Source: a virus
Virus record (IMG/VR): IMGVR_UViG_3300030116_006541
Location: 1-40,656 of that record
Length of the DNA: 40,656 nucleotides
Direction: 5' to 3' (one strand)
Shown here piece by piece: positions 3,184 to 35,631 of this stretch (the stretch's first letter is position 1; each line of letters begins with the position of its first letter). Position numbers and translations under genes: made by a program. The notes below the pieces were generated by a model. That model had not been told where the DNA came from. It saw nothing but the letters and a program-made list of their open reading frames with translations, and made no database searches.

Positions 3184-4758
3184 ATGGAATTTAATCAACC
3201 TAGTGAGATCGTAAAAGATCTTAACTTTGGCGAAGATGCCAAAAGTAAAGTTATTAGTGGTGTAGATAAATTAGCACAAGCTGTTAAATCTACACTCGGA
3301 GCTTCTGGTAAGTGTGTAATATATGAAGATGCAAGAGGCAATCCGGTTATTACAAAAGACGGTGTAACAGTAGCAGAATCTGTTGTCTTATTAGACCCGG
3401 TAGAAAACATAGGCGCTACACTTATTAAAGAGGCAAGTAAAAATACGGTGAAAGAAGCAGGTGACGGTACTACAACAGCTATCGTCCTTGCTGAATCACT
3501 ATTAAAAGAAGTAAATAAACCTGAGTATTTAGGTGAATCAACAAGAAATATTAAAAATGGAATTAAATCAGCAGGTGAAAAGGTTATGGAGTACCTTTCA
3601 AAACACTCCAAAGCAGTATCTGGCACTCAGCTTACCAGTGTTTCGGAAATTTCATGTAATAATGATACGGAACTTGGTAGCATTATTGCGTCAGCTTACG
3701 AAAAAGTAGGTAAAGATGGCGTTGTTTTAATGGAAGACAGCGATACAGATGAAACTTATGCAGAAATAGTAGATGGTGTGCAGTTCGACAGTGGATTAAC
3801 ATCGACACATTTCGCAACAAATAAAGAAAAACAGGTAGCAGAACTACAAAATCCGGCAGTTTTAATAGTTTCATCCACAATACCTAGTATAAGAAAGATA
3901 CAAAGTATACTAGAAGCAGTAATAAAAGCAAAAAAACCGCTTTTAATCATTGCTCAAGTCGATCAACAGGTAAAATCGGCGCTTTTGATGAACAAAGTTA
4001 AAGGTAATATCGATGTCAATATCATAGATCCACCAGGTTTTGGTGCTGGTAAAGCAGATGTGATGGAAGATTTGGCATTTTTAACTGGCGCAACTGTTAT
4101 GAATGAAGAGTTGGGAGACGATTTAGATCTGATCCAGCCAGATTGTTTAGGCGAAGTGGTAAAATCTGTAACTAACAACAGAACTACAGTCCTAACAACT
4201 GGCGTAAATAAAGAAGATTTACAGGAAAGGATCAATACTGTTAAAAAATTACTTAAAAAAGAAAAAGAACCGTTTTTTAAGAAGAAATTACAAGAAAGAT
4301 TAGCTATGCTAACAGGTTATGTTGGCATAATCAAAGTAGGTGGCAACTCTAAAATAGAATTAAAGGAGAAAAAAGATAGAGTTGAGGATGCTATTTACGC
4401 AGTTAAGGCAGCTTTACAAGAAGGGATCGTCCCTGGCGGAGGAATTGCGCTGTTAAATGCTGCAAATAGTATAAAACCTGAAAATATAGGGGAGAAAATA
4501 CTAGTAGAAGCCATAAAATCTCCATTTTTAACCATTATGGACAACGCTGGTATTGAAAACTACGATATGCCTGACCTAAAAGGCGTAGGATATGACGTTA
4601 CAACCGGTAAAAGCGTCGATATGATCAAATCTGGAATCGTAGACCCCGCCTTAGTGACAAAAACTGCGTTAAAAAACGCAATTTCTGTAGTTTCTACTAT
4701 AATTTCCGCAAATTGTGTAATATCTAATATAAGAGTAGGACATGAAAGCGGTAAATAG
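3184..4758 (+). CDS. groEL: phage-encoded chaperonin GroEL (Hsp60)
   Basis: ATP-driven folding-chamber subunit. The full three-domain chaperonin layout is present in 524 residues (E. coli GroEL has 548). The equatorial N-part contains LGASG near residue 38 and ITKDGVTVAE with the Asp equivalent to D52. AGDGTTT has Asp94 (equivalent to D87). An apical domain follows, including PPGFGAGKADVMEDLAFLTG. The C-terminal equatorial part has RVEDA with Asp402 (equivalent to D398) and PGGG at 417-420. All three ATPase aspartates are therefore kept. It lacks the flexible Gly-Gly-Met tail and ends RVGHESGK, and the usual LGPKG is LGASG. The start has an AT-rich leader (AATATAATAAAATGG) and no Shine-Dalgarno site. 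The 3' end overlaps groES by 17 bases, so the two are coupled. The likely clients are this phage's virion proteins, which is inference. Confidence 0.97.
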   Translation: MEFNQPSEIVKDLNFGEDAKSKVISGVDKLAQAVKSTLGASGKCVIYEDARGNPVITKDGVTVAESVVLLDPVENIGATLIKEASKNTVKEAGDGTTTAIVLAESLLKEVNKPEYLGESTRNIKNGIKSAGEKVMEYLSKHSKAVSGTQLTSVSEISCNNDTELGSIIASAYEKVGKDGVVLMEDSDTDETYAEIVDGVQFDSGLTSTHFATNKEKQVAELQNPAVLIVSSTIPSIRKIQSILEAVIKAKKPLLIIAQVDQQVKSALLMNKVKGNIDVNIIDPPGFGAGKADVMEDLAFLTGATVMNEELGDDLDLIQPDCLGEVVKSVTNNRTTVLTTGVNKEDLQERINTVKKLLKKEKEPFFKKKLQERLAMLTGYVGIIKVGGNSKIELKEKKDRVEDAIYAVKAALQEGIVPGGGIALLNAANSIKPENIGEKILVEAIKSPFLTIMDNAGIENYDMPDLKGVGYDVTTGKSVDMIKSGIVDPALVTKTALKNAISVVSTIISANCVISNIRVGHESGK

Positions 4759-4999
4759 TTATATAATAGTAGAAAAAATTAAAGAAAAGCCTACTACTGT
4801 TGCAGGTTTAGAAATAACTGAAAAGTTAAACACTGACAACAGGTACTTAAAAGCTAAAATAATATCAATTGGTAACCTTGTAGAAGGCGTAAAGGAAAAT
4901 GATGTAGTTCATTATGATAAACACGCTGGGCATGGTATACAATGGAAAGGAAAACTATACTATGTTATTAGAATACAAGACATAGTTATAGTAGAATGA
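4742..4999 (+). CDS. groES: phage-encoded co-chaperonin GroES (Hsp10)
   Basis: Lid subunit that caps GroEL. It has 85 residues against about 95-97 in bacteria. The N-terminal strand NSYIIVEKI is followed by a mobile-loop segment, about residues 14-30, where TVAGLEI takes the place of the AGGIVL motif that contacts GroEL. Then come KAKIISIG (bacterial GEVLAVG), KENDVVHY (VGDIVIF) and the last strand LYYVIRIQDIVIVE (EYLIMRESDILAIVE). The canonical IVL tripeptide is changed to LEI, which may match the diverged phage GroEL. It starts inside the groEL end, and its stop overlaps the next start (ATGA at 4996-4999), so three genes are translationally coupled. Confidence 0.9.
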   Translation: MKAVNSYIIVEKIKEKPTTVAGLEITEKLNTDNRYLKAKIISIGNLVEGVKENDVVHYDKHAGHGIQWKGKLYYVIRIQDIVIVE

Positions 5000-12208: not shown

Positions 12209-14464
12209 ATGAGATGGTTTTGGTCAAGATTAGACATATGGAATACTAGTAAAAACACTACTGTATCTACGAGTAAGTCAACGAGTACTACGTTTAACAC
12301 AAGTACTGCGACTACAACCACATATAATACTACTAAGTCAACTGATACAACTTGGCAAACTTCTAAAAATACTACTACAGTATATAACACTACGTGGGCT
12401 ACTTCTAGAACTACGAATACAATCACTATTACATATTATACAACTAGTAAAACTACTACCTGGTCTACTTCTAAAAGTACAAGTAGATCAACTACTACAG
12501 TAGTATCTACTAATAGAAATACAACAACAACATTTAATACCTCTTATAACACTAGTACTACAACTAAAAGAGCTACACAAAAAGACACTACGACTGTATA
12601 TACTACAACGTTTCAAACAAGTAGAATTACTGATAGGACTACAATAACAGTATTTAATACTAGTACAAACACAACCACAACGTTTAACACGAGTACTACC
12701 ACAACGTATACTACTACATTTAATACAAGCACAGTAACTACGTTTAACACGAGTAAAACTACCACGTGGTCTACAAGTAAGTCAACAACCACTATATATA
12801 ATACAAGTAGAAACACTACTACAGCTTTTACCACAGCGTATAATACTAGTACAACTACTAAAAGATATACATCAATAAACACTATAACGGTTTATGAGAC
12901 TGTTTATCAAACTCAAGCAAGTTTAGCAACTAGTAGAACAACTATAACTGTATTTAACACAAGTACAAATACGACTACTACGTTCAATACAAGTACGACT
13001 ACTACATACACAACGACGTTCAATACAAGTACAACTACTACATTTAACACGTCAAGAACAACCACTTGGGCTACTAGTAGATCTACTACTACCACTTGGG
13101 CTACAAGTAGAAATACTACAACTGCTTTTACTACGTCTTACAATACTAGTACAACCACTAAAAGATATACTAGTAGGTCTACGTCGACAGTGTATAGCAC
13201 AACTACTACATATAATACAAGTAGAACAACAACCTTTAATACTAGTACAGCGACAACAACAACATTTACAACAACGTGGGCAACAAGTAGAAGTACGCAA
13301 GAACAAAGAAGTACAACGACTACATATACAACAACAACTACCTTTAACACAAGTAAAAATACTATAGAAAAAAGGAGTACAACAACTGTATATAGTACAA
13401 CTACTACGTATAATACTAGTACTACTACTCAAACATCTAGATCAACTTCAAAATCTACAAGTAGGAGTACAACTACTGTTGTATCAACTAGTAGAAATAC
13501 AACTGAGTCAAGAAGTACGCAGACTATATACACAACTACAACCACATTTAGTACTAGCAGGAATACAACTGAATCAAGAAGTACTACAACTGTGTATACA
13601 GCGAGTACTGCATTTAATACAAGTACTACAACTCAAACGTCTAGAACTACATCAAAAACAACAAGTAGATCTACGACTACAACTTGGAGCACTAGTAGAA
13701 ACACGACGGAAAGTAGAAGTACAACAACCGTATATGTAGCTAGCACAACATTTAATACAAGTAGAACAACATATTTTACTACATCAACAGCTTATAATAC
13801 AAGTACCACTACTAAAAGAGCAACAAGTAAATCAACGAGTAGAAGTACTACCACAACTTGGGCAACAAGTAGAAATACAACTGAGAGTAGAAACACTACT
13901 ACAGTTTATAGTGTTACCACAACATTTAACACTAGTAAAACAACTACTACAACATATACAACGTATTGGAACACAAGTAGAACAACAACATTTGTAACAA
14001 GTAAAACTACAAGTACAGCTTATACTACATACTATAACACTAGTAGAACTACTACATTTAACACTAGTAGAACTACTACGTTTAATACGTCTAGAAATAC
14101 ATTTTCTCATAACACAAGTAGAACTACAGCTGAAAGTAGACAAACAGAATATAACACTACTACTAGTAGAAATACAACAACATACTATAATACAACATCT
14201 TGCTTCTCGTTCTATAGAGGTTCGTCTACTGTTATGAAAGCAGCGTTTGGCTGTATGGAAGCATGTCAAACAAGTGTTTATTCTAATGCAAGTTGGGCTA
14301 CATTAGGTGTAGGTAATTATTTATATTCAAATTCTAGTTGTACAACAGCAATGTCTAGTGGTTGGTGGCCAGTAAACGGAAGTCAAGCTTTCAGTGCTGC
14401 TAAAGTAGTATATGTAGGAGCTGGTGGTGTAATAACAAATATTTATAACTGTGATATATTTTAA
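12209..14464 (+). CDS. giant Thr/Ser/Asn repeat fibre (mucin-like), 751 residues
   Basis: After MRWFWSRLDIWNTSK, about 650 residues consist of repeats of an octapeptide-like unit, aromatic-NTS-x-TTT (for example FNTSRTTT), mixed with 10-residue variants. Charged residues are nearly all Lys/Arg between S and T. NTS and NTT make dozens of N-x-S/T sequons. A 100-residue higher-order repeat is visible at 12641-12940 and again from 12941. The C-terminal about 85 residues form a different domain with Cys (CFSFYRGSSTV, AAFGCMEACQ, LYSNSSC and a final NCDIF). The repeat could be a beta-rich fibre or a glycosylated mucin-like stalk with a receptor tip. The next gene, a methyltransferase-like protein, is 10 bases away. 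Confidence 0.75.
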   Translation: MRWFWSRLDIWNTSKNTTVSTSKSTSTTFNTSTATTTTYNTTKSTDTTWQTSKNTTTVYNTTWATSRTTNTITITYYTTSKTTTWSTSKSTSRSTTTVVSTNRNTTTTFNTSYNTSTTTKRATQKDTTTVYTTTFQTSRITDRTTITVFNTSTNTTTTFNTSTTTTYTTTFNTSTVTTFNTSKTTTWSTSKSTTTIYNTSRNTTTAFTTAYNTSTTTKRYTSINTITVYETVYQTQASLATSRTTITVFNTSTNTTTTFNTSTTTTYTTTFNTSTTTTFNTSRTTTWATSRSTTTTWATSRNTTTAFTTSYNTSTTTKRYTSRSTSTVYSTTTTYNTSRTTTFNTSTATTTTFTTTWATSRSTQEQRSTTTTYTTTTTFNTSKNTIEKRSTTTVYSTTTTYNTSTTTQTSRSTSKSTSRSTTTVVSTSRNTTESRSTQTIYTTTTTFSTSRNTTESRSTTTVYTASTAFNTSTTTQTSRTTSKTTSRSTTTTWSTSRNTTESRSTTTVYVASTTFNTSRTTYFTTSTAYNTSTTTKRATSKSTSRSTTTTWATSRNTTESRNTTTVYSVTTTFNTSKTTTTTYTTYWNTSRTTTFVTSKTTSTAYTTYYNTSRTTTFNTSRTTTFNTSRNTFSHNTSRTTAESRQTEYNTTTSRNTTTYYNTTSCFSFYRGSSTVMKAAFGCMEACQTSVYSNASWATLGVGNYLYSNSSCTTAMSSGWWPVNGSQAFSAAKVVYVGAGGVITNIYNCDIF
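12641..13180 (+). repeat. 100-residue higher-order repeat inside the first Thr-rich fibre
   Basis: Unit A (12641-12940) begins TITVFNTSTNTTTTFNTSTT and unit B starts exactly 300 bases later at 12941 with the same residues. About 80 of the 100 positions can be followed into B, ending near KRYTS, before they diverge. A partial earlier copy of the second half precedes unit A. Codons differ between copies although residues are kept. Confidence 0.75.
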
Positions 14465-14474
14465 AACTTAGATT

Positions 14475-15026
14475 ATGATAAACGAAAATTTAATAGCAGA
14501 ATATACGGGAACAAGCTTTTCAGTTACTAAAATAGACGGTGTATCTAGGTTGACATTTACTAACGGCAATGCTATTGATAATAAAGATCATTATGGCAAA
14601 GCTTTTATGGGTGAAGGCGCGGGACCATGGAGCGCAGATGTGCCTACATCTTTACCACATTTTAGAACTTTAGAAGGTATACCTGACTATCCTAATGTTT
14701 TAATATTAGGTTTAGGTTTGGGTTTATTACCTCAATATATTAAAGAAAACAAAGACTTTGTACAAGTTATCGACGTGGTTGATAACAATCAAGAGCTTAT
14801 TGACTATGTAGATTTTATTGATGATTCAATAAATGTTATAAACGCAGATGCGTATACATATACACCTGATAAAATGTATGATCTAATTATAGCTGATCTA
14901 TGGTGGCATTTTGAAATCACTAGTCAAAACAAGGAAGATTTAAAAACGAACTATGAGCCACATATAAACTACAATGGTAGATTATATATACCTATAGTTC
15001 CTCAAACATATATTAAAGTAGCTTAA
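14475..15026 (+). CDS. SAM-dependent methyltransferase-like (spermidine-synthase fold) protein
   Basis: 183 residues with a Rossmann-type core. Motif I is NVLILGLGLGLLP with Gly79, 81 and 83. An acidic post-I strand is VIDVVDNNQELIDYV (Asp100, Asp103), then VINADAYTY, and DLIIADLWW with Asp141 in the motif IV position. This resembles the spermidine synthase/methyltransferase superfamily, but the protein is shorter than a typical spermidine synthase (about 280-300). The N-terminal part GKAFMGEGAGPWSADVPTSL may shape the substrate pocket. It lies 10 bases after one Thr-rich repeat gene and 2 bases before the other, so it is probably made with them. The fibres are plausible substrates, though a small-molecule substrate is not excluded. 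Confidence 0.7.
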   Translation: MINENLIAEYTGTSFSVTKIDGVSRLTFTNGNAIDNKDHYGKAFMGEGAGPWSADVPTSLPHFRTLEGIPDYPNVLILGLGLGLLPQYIKENKDFVQVIDVVDNNQELIDYVDFIDDSINVINADAYTYTPDKMYDLIIADLWWHFEITSQNKEDLKTNYEPHINYNGRLYIPIVPQTYIKVA

Positions 15027-15028
15027 CC

Positions 15029-17062
15029 ATGCCATTAACTAGTAGATCCACAACAACTTATTTTGGTACTCTTACAAAGAGAGTTACGACTTATAATACC
15101 ACAACTACATATGGTACTAATAAGACTACTACGTTTAATACTAGTAGGACTACTACGTTTAATACTAGCAGAACAACTACTTTTAATACAGGTAAGGGAA
15201 CTAGTAGAAATACAACTACTAGCTGGAATACTAGTAGGACAACAACTTGGACTACGAGTAGATCGACAAGTAAAAGTACTACAACAACATGGGCTACTAG
15301 TAGATCTACTACAAAGAGTAAAACTACAACAACAACGTATACTACATCTACTACTTTTAACACAAGTAAATCTACAACAACAACGTTCAACACAACGTGG
15401 TTTACTGAATTTACAACAACATATAACACTAGTACATCAACAGTAACATTTAGAACAACTACGTTTAATACTAGTACAAATACTACAAAATCGAGGAGTA
15501 CTACAACAACATATACTACTAGTACGGCATTTAATACGTCAACAACAACGACAACAACATATACTACAAGTTGGACAACAACGTTTGGAACAACTACTAC
15601 GTGGAGTACTAGTAGAAACACAACAAAGTCAAGAAGTACTACCACAACTTATACAACTAGTACAGCTTTCAATACTTCTACAACTACTATAGAAAAAAGA
15701 AGCACAACTACAACGTATACAACTAGTACTGTTTTTAATACGTCTACAAGTACTACCACTACTTTTAATACTAGTTGGACAACTACATTTGGTACTACTA
15801 CAGCATACAATACGAGTACAACAACAACAGAAAGTAGGAGTACTCAAACTATATACACTACTAGTACTACATTTAATACTAGTACAACTACTGTAGAATC
15901 AAGAAGTACCACAACAGTATATAACACAACAACAACATTTAATACAAGCACTACAACTAGTAGAAGCACTAGTACAGTTGTGTCGACTAGTAGGACAACA
16001 ACATTTAATACCAGTACTACTACCACAGAAAGTAGAAATACAACGACAAGTTGGTTTACTGAGTTTATAACATCGTACAACACAAGTACTGTAACAAGTA
16101 AAACAACCACGACTACATTTAATACTAGTAAATCAACTACGACTACTTTTAACACAAGTACCACTACTACTTTTAATACTAGCAGAACTACCAGTTGGTC
16201 TACTAATAGAATTACATCTAGAACTACAACGTGGGCAACTAGCAAGTCAACATCTACTGTTGTAGAAACTCAAAGAGATACTAGTACTGTATATATAACA
16301 TATTGGAATACAAGTAAGAATACACAAACAATTACAATAACATCATGGTTTACTGAATTTGTTACTGCTTATAACACTAGTACAGTTACGTCAAAAACAA
16401 CAAGTACTACGTTTAATACAAATAAAAATACTACAACTACGTTTAATACGAGTACTACTACAACTTATAACACAACTAAGACAACTGTAGTATCAACAAA
16501 TAGAATAACAAGTAGAACTACTACTTGGGCTACTAGTAGATCTACATCAACTGTTGTTTCAACTCAAAAAGATACAACCACAGAGTATACGTCTTATTGG
16601 AACACAAGTAGAAGTACAAACACAATAACTATAACAACTTGGTTTACTGAGTTTACCACTACGTATAATACTAGTACAGCTACAACAAGACCAACTAGTA
16701 CCGTGTTTAATACTAGCACTAGTACAACAACTACATTTACTACTACTTGGAATACTAGTACTACAACGGTTTATAATACTCAGACTGATACTACTACTGT
16801 GTATACAACTACGTTTAACACTAGTACATCAACGTCGACAACGACTAAGACAATGTTTAATACTAGCACCACGACAACTACGACTTATAATACAACTAAG
16901 TCTACAACGACTGTCTACAATACTAGTACAAACACGACTACTACATTTAATACTAGCACAACTACTAAGTTTATAACTAACTGGTTTAGTCCACCGGGTA
17001 AAGCTATGGAAGGTTTATTACACACGTATGTTTATATAAGTGGTGGTAGATCTGGTAGTTAG
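15029..17062 (+). CDS. second giant Thr/Ser/Asn repeat fibre (mucin-like), 677 residues
   Basis: Starts MPLTSRSTTTYFGTLTKRVT and is repetitive almost throughout, with the same FNTSxTTT-type unit as the first repeat protein. A distinctive WFTEF(T/I/V)T motif occurs four times. The last three copies start exactly 294 bases apart (16049, 16343, 16637), bounding two 98-residue units that match at about 78 of 98 positions. The C-terminus is different: KFITNWFSPPGKAMEGLLHT followed by a Gly/Ser-rich end. There is no obvious N-terminal virion anchor. It lacks the Cys-rich tip of the first repeat protein, so the two may form a stalk pair or alternative fibres. Confidence 0.75.
   Translation: MPLTSRSTTTYFGTLTKRVTTYNTTTTYGTNKTTTFNTSRTTTFNTSRTTTFNTGKGTSRNTTTSWNTSRTTTWTTSRSTSKSTTTTWATSRSTTKSKTTTTTYTTSTTFNTSKSTTTTFNTTWFTEFTTTYNTSTSTVTFRTTTFNTSTNTTKSRSTTTTYTTSTAFNTSTTTTTTYTTSWTTTFGTTTTWSTSRNTTKSRSTTTTYTTSTAFNTSTTTIEKRSTTTTYTTSTVFNTSTSTTTTFNTSWTTTFGTTTAYNTSTTTTESRSTQTIYTTSTTFNTSTTTVESRSTTTVYNTTTTFNTSTTTSRSTSTVVSTSRTTTFNTSTTTTESRNTTTSWFTEFITSYNTSTVTSKTTTTTFNTSKSTTTTFNTSTTTTFNTSRTTSWSTNRITSRTTTWATSKSTSTVVETQRDTSTVYITYWNTSKNTQTITITSWFTEFVTAYNTSTVTSKTTSTTFNTNKNTTTTFNTSTTTTYNTTKTTVVSTNRITSRTTTWATSRSTSTVVSTQKDTTTEYTSYWNTSRSTNTITITTWFTEFTTTYNTSTATTRPTSTVFNTSTSTTTTFTTTWNTSTTTVYNTQTDTTTVYTTTFNTSTSTSTTTKTMFNTSTTTTTTYNTTKSTTTVYNTSTNTTTTFNTSTTTKFITNWFSPPGKAMEGLLHTYVYISGGRSGS
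16049..16636 (+). repeat. tandem 98-residue (294-base) repeat in the second Thr-rich fibre
   Basis: Two full units (16049-16342 and 16343-16636), each beginning SWFTEF and ending TITIT, differ at about 20 of 98 residues. A third unit starts at 16637 (TWFTEF) but diverges after about 20 residues. The exact 294-base phasing indicates tandem duplication or strong length constraint. Confidence 0.8.
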
Positions 17063-17118
17063 GTAGAAAAGTGTAATTATATGTAACTATTATAATACAA
17101 CAAATTAAATTTAATTAT

Positions 17119-18024
17119 ATGGAAATGTTTAATAAAAAAGAGCTAGATAATAGAATCGGCCCTTTAAAAAAAGAAAAAAGACTATACGAACTAGAAAACA
17201 TAGAAGGTTATGTAATTAGAAAGTGTAGCGAATATGGTATTGAGTCCAGCTATGATGTATTAGCTGAAGAAATGCCTTACTTTAAAACTATAGGATATAC
17301 TGAGTTTGCAGGTAATTTTTATTTACAACCTCTAAACTTTAAATTAAGAAACGAACAATTATCCGATGCGTGGAATAAAAATTGTGGTAAATGTCCAAAG
17401 CATGATTATGCTAGTTATTTAATAGATAATATACAAAATAATGTTGCTAATAAATATACTAACAGAAAACAACAATTTGATAAATATCCACCAAAAGACT
17501 ATTTAGTTGTTTTACCTGGATCTAACAAAATAAAAACAAATGTTTGTTTAAATAGGTTAAGACATATTAAAAAAATGCATGGTGATAACGTATATTTTAA
17601 GCCACATCCTATAACAACGCATCAAATTATAGGTGAACTAAAAGACTTTTTTGGTGAACAATGTATATTACCTAGAGATATTGATATGTACTACTATATG
17701 CAAAAAGCTAAAACAGTATATACAACACACATAAGTGAAAGTGCTGTATACGCAGCTGTTTTAGGTAAGAGAATAGAACCTATTGATGTATGGAATAATA
17801 TACAAAACGGATCTTTTTATACAATAAACAATTATTTATTTACTCACCAAGATAATATCAAAGAATTTATAAATAATAGCTTTTCTAATTTTGAATCAGG
17901 CATAATAAATCCTTGGTTAGAAAAAGATTGGAGGAGTAAAGTTGATAAGTATTTTGAGTATATAACAAAGAAGAGAGATAGTTATAAAGATTGGTTTATG
18001 GCCGATAACAAGAAAAAGAAGTAA
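17119..18024 (+). CDS. GT-B-like glycosyltransferase (capsule/teichoic-type), 301 residues
   Basis: The C-terminal half has the signature of GT-B enzymes of the KpsC/KpsS and CDP-glycerol transferase type. These signs are DYLVVLPGSNKIKTN at the start of the second Rossmann unit (about 127-141), VYFKPHPITTHQII with KPHP at 161-164, then AKTVYTTHISESAVYAAVLG with SES at 206-208 and GKR at 216-218. The N-terminal half is less clear and holds CGKC (89-92), possibly structural. The product would transfer a sugar or polyol from a nucleotide donor. It follows the fibre module after 56 AT-rich bases, so fibre glycosylation is the leading idea; modification of host surface glycans is an alternative. 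Confidence 0.65.
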   Translation: MEMFNKKELDNRIGPLKKEKRLYELENIEGYVIRKCSEYGIESSYDVLAEEMPYFKTIGYTEFAGNFYLQPLNFKLRNEQLSDAWNKNCGKCPKHDYASYLIDNIQNNVANKYTNRKQQFDKYPPKDYLVVLPGSNKIKTNVCLNRLRHIKKMHGDNVYFKPHPITTHQIIGELKDFFGEQCILPRDIDMYYYMQKAKTVYTTHISESAVYAAVLGKRIEPIDVWNNIQNGSFYTINNYLFTHQDNIKEFINNSFSNFESGIINPWLEKDWRSKVDKYFEYITKKRDSYKDWFMADNKKKK

Positions 18025-29628: not shown

Positions 29629-32600
29629 ATGCCAGAATTAAAACATCATTTTCGTGCAGGTAAAATGAATAAAGACCTGGACGAGAGATTAGTACCTAAT
29701 GGAGAATATCGAGACGCGCAGAACATAGAAATATCTACATCTGAAGGCGATGACGTGGGTAGTGTTCAAAACGTTGTAGGTAATACTAAGATAGTAGGTA
29801 AAACGTATGATTCTAATTCACAAAGCATAACTGCTAACTGGAGTGGTTTTGGTTTAACAAATGCTAAAACAATAGGTAGCGTAGTTGATAATGAGCATGA
29901 TAAAATATACTGGTTTGTAACAGCTGATAATGCTGACTGTATTATAGAATATGATGACGTAAAAGGTATAATATCACCTGTGCTTGTTGATACCAACGAT
30001 ATATTAAACTTTACATCAGATCAATATATAACAGGTATAAATGTTTTAGAAGGTATGTTACTGTGGACAGATAATAAATCTGAGCCTAAAAAAATAGATA
30101 TTAACATATTTAAATCAGGTTGTGCTGGTAATTTTACAACACATACTAAATATACAGGTGATATAATATTATCTACACAATTAAGTGCTGCATCTGCTTT
30201 TACAGAAGAACATATAACAGTTGCTAAACAAGCACCTATAACAGCGCCAACTTTAACAATGGCAAAATCAAAAAGAGGTGGTAATGGTACAGGTACTTCA
30301 CCTGTTATAGTTAGTAACTCTACAGCTGGTTTATTTGCTGATGCGGATGGTAATGGTAAACAGTCTGGTACTAGTGTAAATTTAAACTTTACTCCAGCTC
30401 CTAACTTTCAAGTCGGTGATATTGTTGTTTTAACAGCGCAATACGAAGAGCAAATATCTCAAATAAACTACGAGATAAAAGGTAGAATAACTAGTTTATC
30501 AAACGGAACACAAACAGCTAGTCTTAAAATATTAAGTATACCTGTTGAGGTTGCATACGTTCCTTTAGTATGGGAGGTATTATTAGAAGAAGACGACGTT
30601 ATCTTTGAAAAGAAGATGGTTAGGTTTGGTTATAGATGGAAATATACAAGTGGTGAATATTCTGTATTTTCACCATTTAGTGAATTAGCATTTTTACCAT
30701 CAACGTTTGAGTATTTATCATCAGATGGTTTTAACGTAGGTATGATAAATAATCTTAGAGATTTAAAAATAACAATACCTAGTAGTTATCCTGTTGATGT
30801 AGAAGAAATAGACATACTATATAAAGAGTCTAACGCTAACAATATATATGTTGTAGATACATTAAAAAGAGATTCATACAATAGTTTTGATTTAGAATAT
30901 CAGTTAAAGTCAGATCTTATTAGTAAAACTGTTGAAACAAATCAAATACTAAGACCATGGGATAACGTACCTAGAAAAGCAAAAGCTCAAGAAGTTACTG
31001 CAAACAGACTTATATATGGTAATTATTTACAACAATATAATATACCTAATTATAACTTACCTGATATAACACTATCAATAGATAATAACGATATAACAAC
31101 TGTAAAAGAACCAGAGCTTTCTATAAAAACGTTAAGAACATATCAAGCAGGTGTTGTGTATATAGACAAATATAATAGACAATCACCTGTGTTTACTAAT
31201 GATACAGCATCTATACAGTTACCAAAGAAGTTTGCTGACAAAGTAAATAAATTAAAAGTATCGTTATCAAATACACCTCCAGAGTGGGCAACTCATTTTA
31301 AATACTACATAAAAGAACCATCTAACGAGTATTATAATTTAGCTATGGATAGATATTATTTAGCTGAAGATGGTAACGTATGGTTAAGTTTTCCTTCATC
31401 TGAAAGAAACAAAGTACAAGAAGACATGTACTTGATATTAAAGAAACAGCATGATAGTGATGTTTTTGTTGAAGATAAAGCTAGATATAAAATATTAGAT
31501 ATACAAAATGAAGCACCAGACTTTATTAAACTTGTTAAAAGAGCAAACGCAGCTGTTGATTGTTTAGTACACGACTCTGGTATACCTCAAGTAGGTAGTA
31601 CATCATTTAAATTTAAAGGACCTGATCCTTTAGACAACCCTGGTTTTGCAGCAAGTTTTACATCTGATAACTTAATACAATTAATTGTTGCAGGAGGTAA
31701 ATCAGCTAAATACCAAGTTGTTAGTGGTGGTTATACAGGTGAAACAGATGGATCTGGAACTAATTCACATATATACTCTGTAACAGTAGGTGAGCCTTTA
31801 AAAGAAGGTGAAACACACTTAGATGGTTTAGCTGATGGCGATAGTATAACTATTGTAATGTATGAGGAAAAGTTTAAAAGAAAACCTGAGCATTACGGTA
31901 GATTTTTTGTAAAAATAAATAGAGACTCAGCTTTTGAAACTAATATTATAGATACATTTCAAACAGAAGAACAAGAGTGGGGTATAAAAACTAGTCAAAC
32001 AATAGATGCTAACAATGCTAATACAGGTGCTGGTAGCAGTATTGGTTCTGAGTCTTGGTTTGATACTTCTGACAGAAACTCTTCTCTTTATATAACACAA
32101 GCAAACAACGGGCATCCTAAAATTGGTAGAAATACATTTAAATTATATAGAGCTGGTGCACCTGGACAAGCACGTCCTAATAGAAGAAAGCATGATAAAG
32201 GTGATAGTATAAACGCATTTTTAAAAGCATTAGACACACCAGGTACATATATAAGATTTAAAAATAGTAGTGGTCAAACAGGTGAAATATATGAAATAAC
32301 TAATTCAGTTAGATATTATCAATATAGAAGGACATCTGGTAAAAAATATTTTAGTGCAAAAAGAAGAGAATATGTTGTAACGTTTAAGCATTGGAAAAAC
32401 GAAGGTAGTTATGAAGATTCATTTACTTTCCCTTCTTCTGGTACTAACTTCAACAATGCAATTAGTGAGATACAAATAATGGAGAAAGTTATTGATCAAG
32501 ATAACGAAATGCTCACTTCAACAAACCCAGCTATATGGGAGACAGAACCAAAAGAAACAACAGAGTTAGATCTGTATTATGAAACAGGTAGTACATACGC

Positions 32601-35600
32601 TATATCTCAACACGGTACTGAACATGAACTAGCTTTTAAAAATTGTTACAGCTTTGGTAATGGTGTAGAATCAGACAGACTTAGAGATGATTTTAACGCT
32701 ATTAAAATAGATAAAGGTGTAAAAGTATCTACAGTATTTGCTGAACAATATAAAGAAGAACAAAAGAAAAATGGTTTAATATACTCTGGTATATTTAACT
32801 CTACTAGCGGAACAAATAGGTTAAATCAATTTATACAAGGTGAAGCTATAACAAAAGATTTAAATCCACATTATGGTGGTATACAAAAATTACATGCTAG
32901 AAATACTGATCTAGTTGTACTATGTGAAGATAAATGTTTAAAAGTATTAGCTAATAAAGATGCTTTATTTGAAGCTGGTGGAAACGCACAGTTAACATCA
33001 ACAAATAGAGTGTTAGGTCAAACAATACCTTTTAGTGGAAACTACGGTATAAGTAAAAACCCTGAATCATTTGCTGAGTACGCTTTTAGGATGTATTTTA
33101 CCGATAAAAATAGAGGAGCTGTTATAAGACTTTCCATGGACGGTATAACACCTATATCTGATGCGGGTATGAGAGATTATTTTAATGATAATTTACCTAC
33201 CGCAAACAAACTTATAGGTAGTTATGATACTAAAAAAGGAGCATACAATTTAACCTTACCAACAACAACTGTTTGTTTTGATGAAAAAATAAATGGTTGG
33301 CCAAGTTTTAAATCATTTATTCCAGAAGCTGGTGTATCATTAAATAACAAATACTTTACTATGTATCAAGGTGAATTATGGATACATAATAATCCTGTTA
33401 GAAATAGTTTTTATGGTGCTGCTTCTGCACAATCATCAGTAACCTTATTAATAAATGATATATCTGAAACTATAAAAGGATTTAAAACGCTTAACTATAG
33501 TGGTAGTAGATCAAGAGTTTACACGTATGATTATGATAATGCTACAGAAACATTTACGCCAGGTTGGTTTGCTGAGTATATAAATACAGATCAACAAGAA
33601 GGTTTTGTAAAACAGTTTATTAAAAAAGAAAATAGATATTATAACAGTTTAAAAGGTGTAGCTACTCAATTATCTAATTTAGATAGTCAAGAGTTTAGTG
33701 TGCAAGGTTTAGGACAATTTACAGGTAGTTTATCTGGTGATGTTTCTTTATCTGATAGAACAGTAACTACTAATTTAACTGGTATTGCAAATGCTACAGT
33801 TGAAGCATTAACATTTGATGTAGAAGCTGGTCAAGAAATACACTCAACAAAAAGTAGTGGCACAATAACAATAACACCTAATACTGGTTTTACTTTAACA
33901 GCTAGTGATTTTAGTGTTTCATCTACTGGATCTTATGTTGATAGTGTTAGCTTTGCTCAAAGTGGAGATAATGTAATAGCAACTGTAAACTTTACAGATG
34001 GTGTTAACATGCCTACTAATGATTTAACTATTAATTTAGCTGTTACAGGTGACGCTGCTGCTATAGTATATAAACTACATGATCTTAATTTTGATATAAA
34101 TAACGATTCAAATATAACTGTTACAAAAACATATTCAGGTAGTAGTAATAAAACCGCTGAACCTGTAAATTCAGCAACTGGTTTTGAAGCTACATACGAT
34201 GGATCAACTTTTGAAACTGTAGCCACTGTTGAGTTTGATTTAGCATCAACACATGAGTTTAAAAGACCACCTCAATATAAAATATTAAAAGAAGATGACT
34301 TAATTGAAAGTCAATATGAAATTACTTATCAAGATAAAGATGCTAGTAATGCAGATATAACAATAGGTGTTGGTGGTAAAACATTAAACGATGTTGATAA
34401 AAGAATATTTACTGTAAAATATAAGTTTCCTGCTCAGGATACTAGTAAAGATAATATACAATTTAACGCTATATCTGTACAAAGACAAGCAACTCAAGAT
34501 AACAAAATAAACGGTTATAGATGGAACAGTACTAACACTGTAAGTAGATATGCACAAACAATAAACTTATATGTATATGGTTTTGAAGGTGCAACATTTA
34601 CATTAAAACAAGTTATAGATGGTGGAACTGCTAAGTACTGGGACGGTGATAGCTTTGAAACATCGTCTACAACTTTAACAATACCAAGTGGTGGTATTTA
34701 TACAATACCTGTAGAGTTTTTTGAAACATCAACTTCAAAAGCGTATGTGTTTACAATAGCAGGTGTAGGATCAACTTCATTGTTAAGTCCTTTAATGGGT
34801 AATGTATATAACACAGCTACACCACCTGTTGTACAAAATCCATTTACTATAAATCAATTTGCTGATGTTACTTTAACAGTAGCAGCAACAAGTAGTAATA
34901 TGACTGTTACGTCTAGTAACTTTACGCAAACATCTCAAGCATTATCTTCACCTAACGAAGAATCTGATGTAGCAAAATTAGATGTTACTTTTACAGCAAC
35001 AGCAACTGGTAATATATCTCAAGTAACAGATGCTGAAATAGAAGACTTTAGCAATTATAACTCTAACAATTTTAATTTAGAATTTGCTGCTAACTTACCA
35101 ACTATAAATAATGTTCCTGCAACAAAAACATTATCATACACAGGATCGATGCTTATTGATAATTATGGATCAGCTGACACAACTATGTCACTAAACTTAG
35201 ATAATTTCTTTAATGTTGCTGGTGGATCAGGTGGATCTATATTGTTAAACTCTGAAGTAACAGGTGCAGGCGGTGGATTTATAAATATTGGTAAATTAAC
35301 ATATAATGATGGTACTTACAGCACTACAAACGGTAAAGTGATACATGTAGGTACTGCAGACAACACGAGTATAAGTGGTACTGGTACAATATATGGTAAT
35401 TTCTTTGGCAATGGTATTAACGATATTACCTTAGCTATTACACCTGGTACTGGAAATACTGATACTGGAACATCATGCTTTGATAATATGACAATAACAA
35501 AAGGTACTTTATCTGGTAGTGATGCAAGTCAAGATTTAACGTACACTTGGACAGCTCAGTTTGATGAAACAATAACATCTAGTTCAATACCAGATTACAA

Positions 35601-35631
35601 CGTACAAGTAAGTTTAACTAATGAACCTTAA
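29629..35631 (+). CDS. giant tail/stabilisation protein, 2000 residues
   Basis: The N-terminus HHFRAGKMNKDLDERLVPNG, then EYRDAQNIEISTSEGDDVGS is the opening I recall from large tail-hub/stabilisation proteins of marine phages. The first about 1350 residues look like a beta-rich body with repeated phrases (LPDITLSIDNN; DNNPVRNSF-type loops). From about residue 1385 come Ig-like or carbohydrate-binding-type beta-sandwich segments (ALTFDVEAGQEI, SGTITITPNTGFTLTASDFS). More follow near residues 1740-1800 and up to the C-terminus. It is the largest protein in the window and probably forms the tail hub or muzzle with outward-facing domains. It is followed by a small partner after 6 bases. The function is inferred from N-terminal resemblance and location. 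Confidence 0.65.
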   Translation: MPELKHHFRAGKMNKDLDERLVPNGEYRDAQNIEISTSEGDDVGSVQNVVGNTKIVGKTYDSNSQSITANWSGFGLTNAKTIGSVVDNEHDKIYWFVTADNADCIIEYDDVKGIISPVLVDTNDILNFTSDQYITGINVLEGMLLWTDNKSEPKKIDINIFKSGCAGNFTTHTKYTGDIILSTQLSAASAFTEEHITVAKQAPITAPTLTMAKSKRGGNGTGTSPVIVSNSTAGLFADADGNGKQSGTSVNLNFTPAPNFQVGDIVVLTAQYEEQISQINYEIKGRITSLSNGTQTASLKILSIPVEVAYVPLVWEVLLEEDDVIFEKKMVRFGYRWKYTSGEYSVFSPFSELAFLPSTFEYLSSDGFNVGMINNLRDLKITIPSSYPVDVEEIDILYKESNANNIYVVDTLKRDSYNSFDLEYQLKSDLISKTVETNQILRPWDNVPRKAKAQEVTANRLIYGNYLQQYNIPNYNLPDITLSIDNNDITTVKEPELSIKTLRTYQAGVVYIDKYNRQSPVFTNDTASIQLPKKFADKVNKLKVSLSNTPPEWATHFKYYIKEPSNEYYNLAMDRYYLAEDGNVWLSFPSSERNKVQEDMYLILKKQHDSDVFVEDKARYKILDIQNEAPDFIKLVKRANAAVDCLVHDSGIPQVGSTSFKFKGPDPLDNPGFAASFTSDNLIQLIVAGGKSAKYQVVSGGYTGETDGSGTNSHIYSVTVGEPLKEGETHLDGLADGDSITIVMYEEKFKRKPEHYGRFFVKINRDSAFETNIIDTFQTEEQEWGIKTSQTIDANNANTGAGSSIGSESWFDTSDRNSSLYITQANNGHPKIGRNTFKLYRAGAPGQARPNRRKHDKGDSINAFLKALDTPGTYIRFKNSSGQTGEIYEITNSVRYYQYRRTSGKKYFSAKRREYVVTFKHWKNEGSYEDSFTFPSSGTNFNNAISEIQIMEKVIDQDNEMLTSTNPAIWETEPKETTELDLYYETGSTYAISQHGTEHELAFKNCYSFGNGVESDRLRDDFNAIKIDKGVKVSTVFAEQYKEEQKKNGLIYSGIFNSTSGTNRLNQFIQGEAITKDLNPHYGGIQKLHARNTDLVVLCEDKCLKVLANKDALFEAGGNAQLTSTNRVLGQTIPFSGNYGISKNPESFAEYAFRMYFTDKNRGAVIRLSMDGITPISDAGMRDYFNDNLPTANKLIGSYDTKKGAYNLTLPTTTVCFDEKINGWPSFKSFIPEAGVSLNNKYFTMYQGELWIHNNPVRNSFYGAASAQSSVTLLINDISETIKGFKTLNYSGSRSRVYTYDYDNATETFTPGWFAEYINTDQQEGFVKQFIKKENRYYNSLKGVATQLSNLDSQEFSVQGLGQFTGSLSGDVSLSDRTVTTNLTGIANATVEALTFDVEAGQEIHSTKSSGTITITPNTGFTLTASDFSVSSTGSYVDSVSFAQSGDNVIATVNFTDGVNMPTNDLTINLAVTGDAAAIVYKLHDLNFDINNDSNITVTKTYSGSSNKTAEPVNSATGFEATYDGSTFETVATVEFDLASTHEFKRPPQYKILKEDDLIESQYEITYQDKDASNADITIGVGGKTLNDVDKRIFTVKYKFPAQDTSKDNIQFNAISVQRQATQDNKINGYRWNSTNTVSRYAQTINLYVYGFEGATFTLKQVIDGGTAKYWDGDSFETSSTTLTIPSGGIYTIPVEFFETSTSKAYVFTIAGVGSTSLLSPLMGNVYNTATPPVVQNPFTINQFADVTLTVAATSSNMTVTSSNFTQTSQALSSPNEESDVAKLDVTFTATATGNISQVTDAEIEDFSNYNSNNFNLEFAANLPTINNVPATKTLSYTGSMLIDNYGSADTTMSLNLDNFFNVAGGSGGSILLNSEVTGAGGGFINIGKLTYNDGTYSTTNGKVIHVGTADNTSISGTGTIYGNFFGNGINDITLAITPGTGNTDTGTSCFDNMTITKGTLSGSDASQDLTYTWTAQFDETITSSSIPDYNVQVSLTNEP

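Follow-up and report, generated by a model that had tools for sequence, protein, structure and literature searches.

A phage cassette of threonine-repeat proteins, a SAM-dependent enzyme and a glycosyltransferase with a putative role in fibre decoration

Analysis of the virus record IMGVR_UViG_3300030116_006541 (IMG/VR; positions 1 to 40,656, the complete 40,656-base stretch being referred to as the window) revealed a cassette of four consecutive genes on the plus strand. These encode a first repeat fibre protein (repeat protein 1; 12209-14464, 751 residues), an S-adenosylmethionine (SAM)-dependent transferase (14475-15026, 183 residues), a second repeat fibre protein (repeat protein 2; 15029-17062, 677 residues) and a GT-B-type glycosyltransferase (GT; 17119-18024, 301 residues), with intergenic gaps of 10, 2 and 56 bases. 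The open reading frames (ORFs), their sizes and order and the gaps of 10 and 2 bases are exactly as described in an initial annotation, which read the arrangement as a self-contained cassette that builds a mucin-like fibre and then decorates it by methylation and/or glycosylation. The window's terminase is nearest to that of an uncultured podovirus (62%) and to those of Flavobacterium and Cellulophaga phages.

Repeat protein 1 carries the N-terminal motif MRWFWSRLDIWNT, about 630 residues of register-locked Thr repeats and, from around position 14132, a non-repeat, tip-like C-terminal domain of about 110 residues. Repeat protein 2 starts with MPLTSRST and consists of repeats nearly throughout, ending in a short tail without a globular domain. 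Bulky residues (F/Y/W/R/K) are evenly spaced in 81-82% of cases, compared with 44-45% in shuffled sequences (maximum of 2000 shuffles: 60%), and spacings of 4 or 6 make up 60-70% as opposed to 17% (maximum: 31%). Within four-residue units, Thr is found two positions after the bulky residue in 97/97 instances (51/51 in repeat protein 1 and 46/46 in repeat protein 2); the position following this locked Thr is mixed Ser/Thr and neighboring positions are mixed Ser/Thr/Asn/Ala. The 17 and the 19 copies of the unit FNTS each show 10 different DNA words, and this diversity of synonymous codons argues for selection at the protein level. Ser is only one base change away from Thr yet never occurs at the locked position, thus selection acts on Thr itself, which may serve as an acceptor or have a structural role. 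The observed alternation would fit an extended β-strand whose bulky residues all point to the same side, and both proteins are probably long, β-structured fibre shafts, with trimeric assembly being probable. The term mucin-like does not hold for these proteins: mucin domains are Pro-rich with irregularly distributed Ser/Thr, whereas about 630 residues of repeat proteins 1 and 2 contain 0 and 1 Pro, respectively, and Thr is locked in register. The N-x-S/T acceptor sites pointed out initially do exist, with 83-89% of Asn residues located in a sequon, but the sequon is not a conserved element because Ser and Thr already account for about 62% of residues and related phages show Asp, Ser or Thr in place of Asn. 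N-glycosylation of Asn sequons is consequently not favored, given that the repeats of Caulobacter and Vibrio phages keep Thr but carry Asp or other residues at Asn positions.

Among relatives, the N-terminus of repeat protein 1 is conserved and the C-termini are variable. In known fibres, the Peptidase_S74 chaperone promotes trimer folding. An S74-like C-terminal chaperone domain could be detected in repeat protein 1 of three relatives (L020, L070 and L079; E 5e-4 to 4e-3, just under the cut-off); the window's repeat protein 1 has no Pfam match and thus no C-terminal S74 domain. A tblastn search of phage records with repeat protein 1 gave no match, perhaps as a result of BLAST low-complexity masking, and repeat genes were sought by pattern scans instead. 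A single repeat ORF of at least 3395 residues, truncated by the end of the locus, is seen at L145 (3-10187) and L193.

The GT has no Pfam family match and a PDB sequence search with it returned nothing useful. It belongs to PHROGs 26179 and 30602, families of unknown function. The GT-B-like fold proposed in the initial annotation was confirmed by an AlphaFold2 model with a predicted local distance difference test (pLDDT) score of 84.6. The Kdo (3-deoxy-D-manno-oct-2-ulosonic acid) transferases KpsC, WbbB and KrkA represent the top 15 structural matches of this model (Z 9.6-7.4), with KpsC ranking highest (Z 9.6, root-mean-square deviation 4.2, 213 aligned residues) and a polysialyltransferase just behind them (Z 7.2). 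Alignment revealed two invariant motifs, KPHP (17599-17610) and SES (17734-17742). KPHP is invariant in 34 close GTs, as are the K-x-H-P columns in 7 divergent GTs, and (K/R)xHP is the cytidine monophosphate (CMP)-binding motif of sialyl- and Kdo transferases (PMC12887879). The QxxxD motif, which provides the nucleophilic Asp of retaining Kdo transferases (PMC12887879), is missing and the enzyme is therefore akin to these proteins in donor-binding mode and not a member of GT99, GT107 or GT140. Its predicted donor is CMP-Kdo or another CMP-sugar. The diversity of the seven divergent GTs was too great for their alignment to serve in a viral scan, and single queries with the VS2 and Cr30 GTs yielded nothing new.

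The product of the gene flanked by the two repeat genes, here called MT-A, matches the PHROG 15480 methyltransferase (E 1.7e-5) and has a predicted spermidine-synthase-like Rossmann fold (AlphaFold2 model, pLDDT 83; spermidine synthase match Z 13.5, 163 aligned residues), with motif I located at about 14700-14724. Its initial description as SAM-methyltransferase-like thus stands as far as the SAM-enzyme fold is concerned, but the similarity to spermidine synthases means that the fold itself does not fix the transferred group; MT-A is a probable methyltransferase. A role as a DNA methyltransferase was rejected, as the window enzyme contains no PP dipeptide and [DNS]PP[YFW] is absent from the alignment. 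The slot between the repeats is filled by either of two enzyme kinds, MT-A or a second type termed MT-B, with some phages encoding both, and the two types have only the Rossmann core in common. MT-B matches guanidinoacetate methyltransferase (GAMT; E 5e-12), with WE and the Asp of ILxDTY being invariant; this Asp aligns with the catalytic Asp134 of GAMT (PMC12471008). The relationship to GAMT points to methylation of guanidino groups (Arg) where MT-B occurs. MT-B often carries a C-terminal intein/Hint-like domain (L008, L009, L011, L016, L018, L022 and L028), and repeat protein 1 of these seven phages usually ends in a Gly-rich CxRGC sequence. At least two changes of slot type can be placed on the GT tree, although the counts include some loci cut before their upstream part, so that changes involving both enzymes may be overstated. 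The window's MT-A group is nested beside the MT-B phages L008 and L009 with starred support, indicating that a different family came to occupy the slot. Replacement of one methyltransferase family by another without an empty state suggests that a function is retained in this slot. A relative of MT-B was also found in a 635-kb uncultured phage (L083, 11980-12561), directly after three giant fibre-like genes, with neither the Thr repeat nor the GT nearby.

To avoid circularity, IMG/VR was searched with repeat DNA alone and repeat genes with at least 1.2 kb of downstream sequence were counted. Such genes were followed by the GT in 72 cases, by a methyltransferase in 42 and by neither in none (114/114 linked); after dereplication, 54 were followed by the GT and 34 by a methyltransferase. 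Conversely, loci anchored on the GT have a repeat gene immediately upstream in all cases where sequence exists. All 55 dereplicated repeat-repeat pairs contain a methyltransferase between the repeats (32 MT-A, 19 MT-B and 4 both; one short overlapping ORF excluded), and these pairs represent one phage clade. The co-occurrence for which the initial annotation had suggested a search is therefore found throughout the repeat-anchored sampling, with no repeat gene lacking a downstream GT or methyltransferase.

Repeat-GT pairs could further be identified in unrelated phages. The GTs of Caulobacter phages, Cr30 and Vibrio phages are about 20-25% identical and directly follow a Thr-repeat gene. Caulobacter autographiviruses encode the pair as gp042-gp043 in BL199 and as gp41-gp42 in Lullwater, the GT of Cr30 is preceded by a short T/Y-rich gene, and the Vibrio phages KVP40 (KVP40.0254-0256), F86, D484 and D479 encode the repeat protein followed by the GT with one small coiled-coil gene in between. 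For marine myophages, an independent Y/R period-4 pattern matched four true repeat genes, covering two further phage types, each followed by a GT; pattern hits in L188 and L191 were wrong-frame readings and not repeats. DLP6 encodes a GT relative that does not adjoin a recognized repeat gene. None of the repeat-GT pairs in these unrelated phages has a methyltransferase between repeats, so the GT linkage is general while the methyltransferase linkage is specific to the window's clade, and the initially proposed co-occurrence of repeats with both enzymes across phages holds for the GT only. Radical SAM enzymes were observed in two contexts, namely between two repeat genes and the GT in L216 (5977-7026) and a few genes downstream of the GT in KVP40.

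Both KdsA and KdsB take part in CMP-Kdo synthesis, the latter as CMP-Kdo synthetase. The kdsA gene, accompanied by kdsB or not, adjoins the GT in about 20 myophage loci and three gene orders: the order repeat - GT - kdsA - cupin - GT29-like was recorded for about 18 loci of marine myophages, and two further lineages have both kdsA and kdsB close to the GT but arranged differently. In the myophage loci tested, KdsA and KdsB assignments were confirmed at NCBIfam cut-offs. One phage protein represents a fusion of KdsB with a Methyltransf_23-like domain (L215, 3852-5126). Three near-complete genomes of the window's clade (G001-G003), including the window's closest near-complete relative, contain a separate operon in the order JmjC-like - cupin - kdsB - kdsA - GT-A-like (- GT29-like), whose cupin, kdsB, kdsA, GT-A-like and GT29-like genes are homologous to those of the myophages; the kdsB of these genomes is divergent and falls below the curated cut-off. 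This flavophage operon, mapped at loci L219, L220 and L221, includes the GT29-like gene in two of them and lies apart from the repeat cassette. Recoding of kdsA in G001-G003 ('1 TGA') was considered and rejected, as intact ORFs of 254-255 residues overlap kdsB. The window's 40-kb fragment encodes no CMP-sugar donor synthesis, and the cassette is thus not self-contained, though donor synthesis is present elsewhere in its relatives.

Outside the cassette, the window encodes a GroEL and GroES pair (3184-4999; Pfam Cpn60; NCBIfam GroEL 476 bits), and the related podovirus MW202828 also carries groEL and chaperonin 10. A 2000-residue protein (29629-35631) weakly matches the C-terminal domain of the crAss-phage muzzle (E 0.007). 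The same cassette is found on a contig binned as a Flavobacteriales metagenome-assembled genome (L186, NHFY01000092), which is weak host evidence.

We consider it reasonably probable that the phage decorates its own fibres with a Kdo-type sugar on Thr/Ser and that the methyltransferase modifies the fibre or the glycan. The four genes would build and then decorate a virion fibre, with repeat protein 1 carrying the tip domain. In the cytoplasm of the infected cell, the GT-B enzyme would transfer a CMP-activated acidic sugar, most likely Kdo, to the hydroxyls of repeat Thr/Ser residues, giving an O-linkage in a manner resembling flagellin O-glycosylation by Maf and FlmG enzymes. The slot enzyme would then methylate either the fibre or its glycan; where the GAMT-like version is present, the guanidino groups of regularly placed Arg may be the methyl target. 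The CMP-Kdo used by the window's phage would be supplied either by the host or by a kds operon located outside of the fragment. Potential benefits include fibre shielding or stiffening, masking from defence or tuning of adsorption. The initial claim that a fibre is packaged with its decorating enzymes is thus supported with respect to linkage and recurrence in unrelated phages, whereas the fibres are chemical substrates only by inference.

A number of observations weigh against the proposed Kdo-type glycosylation and methylation of the fibres. Co-occurrence inside one phage clade reflects shared ancestry in part, and we infer that the repeat proteins are virion components from gene neighborhood, fibre-like N-termini and the S74-like domain. 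In the alignment of close GTs, QxxxD is not conserved, hence donor or stereochemistry may differ, and TagF-like CDP-glycerol enzymes also score against the GT in Foldseek. Neither kdsA nor kdsB was found in 6/9 flavophage relatives searched or in KVP40, BL199, Cr30, F86, D484 and D479, where a host donor must therefore be assumed. Across the 55 pairs, the Arg/Lys content of the repeats shows no shift with methyltransferase type and provides no support for an Arg target; as the repeats do hold regular Arg, but in amounts independent of methyltransferase type, the methyl target may also be the glycan. Lastly, the modeled MT-A resembles spermidine synthase, with spermidine/spermine synthases representing most of its top structural matches (Z 13.5-11.4). 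MT-A could accordingly be taken for an aminopropyltransferase making a polyamine-like modification, yet this seems very improbable: where spermidine synthases have their active-site signature DSxDP, the MT-A alignment shows DLW[AW] or variants, the C-terminal part of these enzymes is missing and a GAMT-like methyltransferase occupies the same slot in sister phages.

It is rather unlikely, though the strongest of the alternatives, that the GT glycosylates the fibre with a different CMP- or CDP-sugar (sialic, pseudaminic or legionaminic acid, CDP-glycerol/ribitol) and that kdsA and kdsB serve another purpose. Such a donor would be compatible with the (K/R)xHP motif common to sialyltransferases and Kdo transferases, the polysialyltransferase and TagF matches, the missing QxxxD motif, the synthesis of pseudaminic acid by Caulobacter hosts and the lack of kds genes in many phages of the set. 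Set against this, KdsA and KdsB adjoin the GT in three gene orders, the gene set is common to two unrelated lineages and the top structural matches of the GT are Kdo transferases. Kdo is also a lipopolysaccharide (LPS) sugar, phage GTs that modify LPS are well known and GT29-like and GT-A-like genes accompany the kds genes, so that the GT and kds genes might remodel host LPS for superinfection exclusion or receptor masking and lie near the fibre since both concern the receptor. We regard this as improbable because it does not account for a GT that, across unrelated phages and hosts, is found only behind repeat genes of this type, nor for the constant position of the methyltransferase between two repeat genes. 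Equally improbable in our view is a connection by phage synteny only, with the repeat proteins being unmodified structural stalks. The 55 pairs do stem from one phage clade, in which structural genes are syntenic by descent, but the repeat-GT pair recurs in differing genome contexts of unrelated phages and a second methyltransferase family came to fill the slot.

Tentatively, Kdo-type glycosylation of the fibres could be extended to a widespread phage fibre family, in which the repeat would be an evolved O-glycosylation array carrying Kdo at fixed Thr residues, attached by a cognate KxHP GT and supplied in some lineages by phage-made CMP-Kdo, with additional fibre methylation (Arg N-methylation in GAMT-type phages); this broader proposal is possible but doubtful. 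If true, a viral protein would carry directly attached Kdo, and a phage fibre would be subject to two kinds of protein modification. A function can now be proposed for PHROGs 26179 and 30602 as well as for KVP40.0254 and KVP40.0256, and a dense sugar coat is predicted on the fibres of common marine phages. It would also suggest why some phages carry kdsA and kdsB, namely for self-coating rather than alteration of host LPS, and would provide a natural pair of regular acceptor peptide and enzyme for glyco-engineering. The cultured Caulobacter phages BL199 and Lullwater, for which C. crescentus CB15 is the laboratory host, and Vibrio phage KVP40 represent direct test systems for phage protein glycosylation.

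The combination described here was not found in the open-access literature searched, absence there being weak evidence, and phage virion glycosylation as such is already known. Several individual parts have known counterparts. As in Peptidase_S74 fibres, an S74-like domain terminates repeat protein 1 in several relatives, whereas the window protein lacks it and its shaft is a Thr repeat. The MT-B of sister phages, though not the window's version, keeps the WE and DTY residues of GAMT but is phage-encoded, frequently carries a fused intein/Hint-like domain and has a predicted protein substrate. KpsC (GT107), WbbB (GT99) and KrkA (GT140) are the best structural matches of the GT and have the HP motif in common with it, but the GT has no QxxxD and its predicted acceptor is a protein instead of a glycolipid or O-antigen. 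Maf attaches Kdo or Neu5Ac (N-acetylneuraminic acid) to flagellin Ser/Thr and can use CMP-Kdo (PMC11339370), and FlmG is a cytoplasmic O-glycosyltransferase in Caulobacter (PMC7591256), so the proposed reaction has precedent. As in this nonulosonate O-glycosylation of flagellin, a cytoplasmic transfer from a CMP-sugar to Ser/Thr of a filament protein is proposed here; unlike Maf and FlmG, the substrate would be a phage fibre, no tetratricopeptide repeat binding domain is seen and the GT has only about 300 residues. In mycobacteriophages, as far as summarized in PMC12619734 (citing Freeman et al. 2023), glycans are found on capsid and tail-tube C-termini and a phage GT is thought to act on the phage's own virion protein, as suggested here. 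Compared with that account, distinguishing features of the present system are its long, dedicated Thr-repeat protein, a CMP-sugar-type GT with KxHP, a methyltransferase and phage-encoded CMP-Kdo synthesis, together with other hosts.

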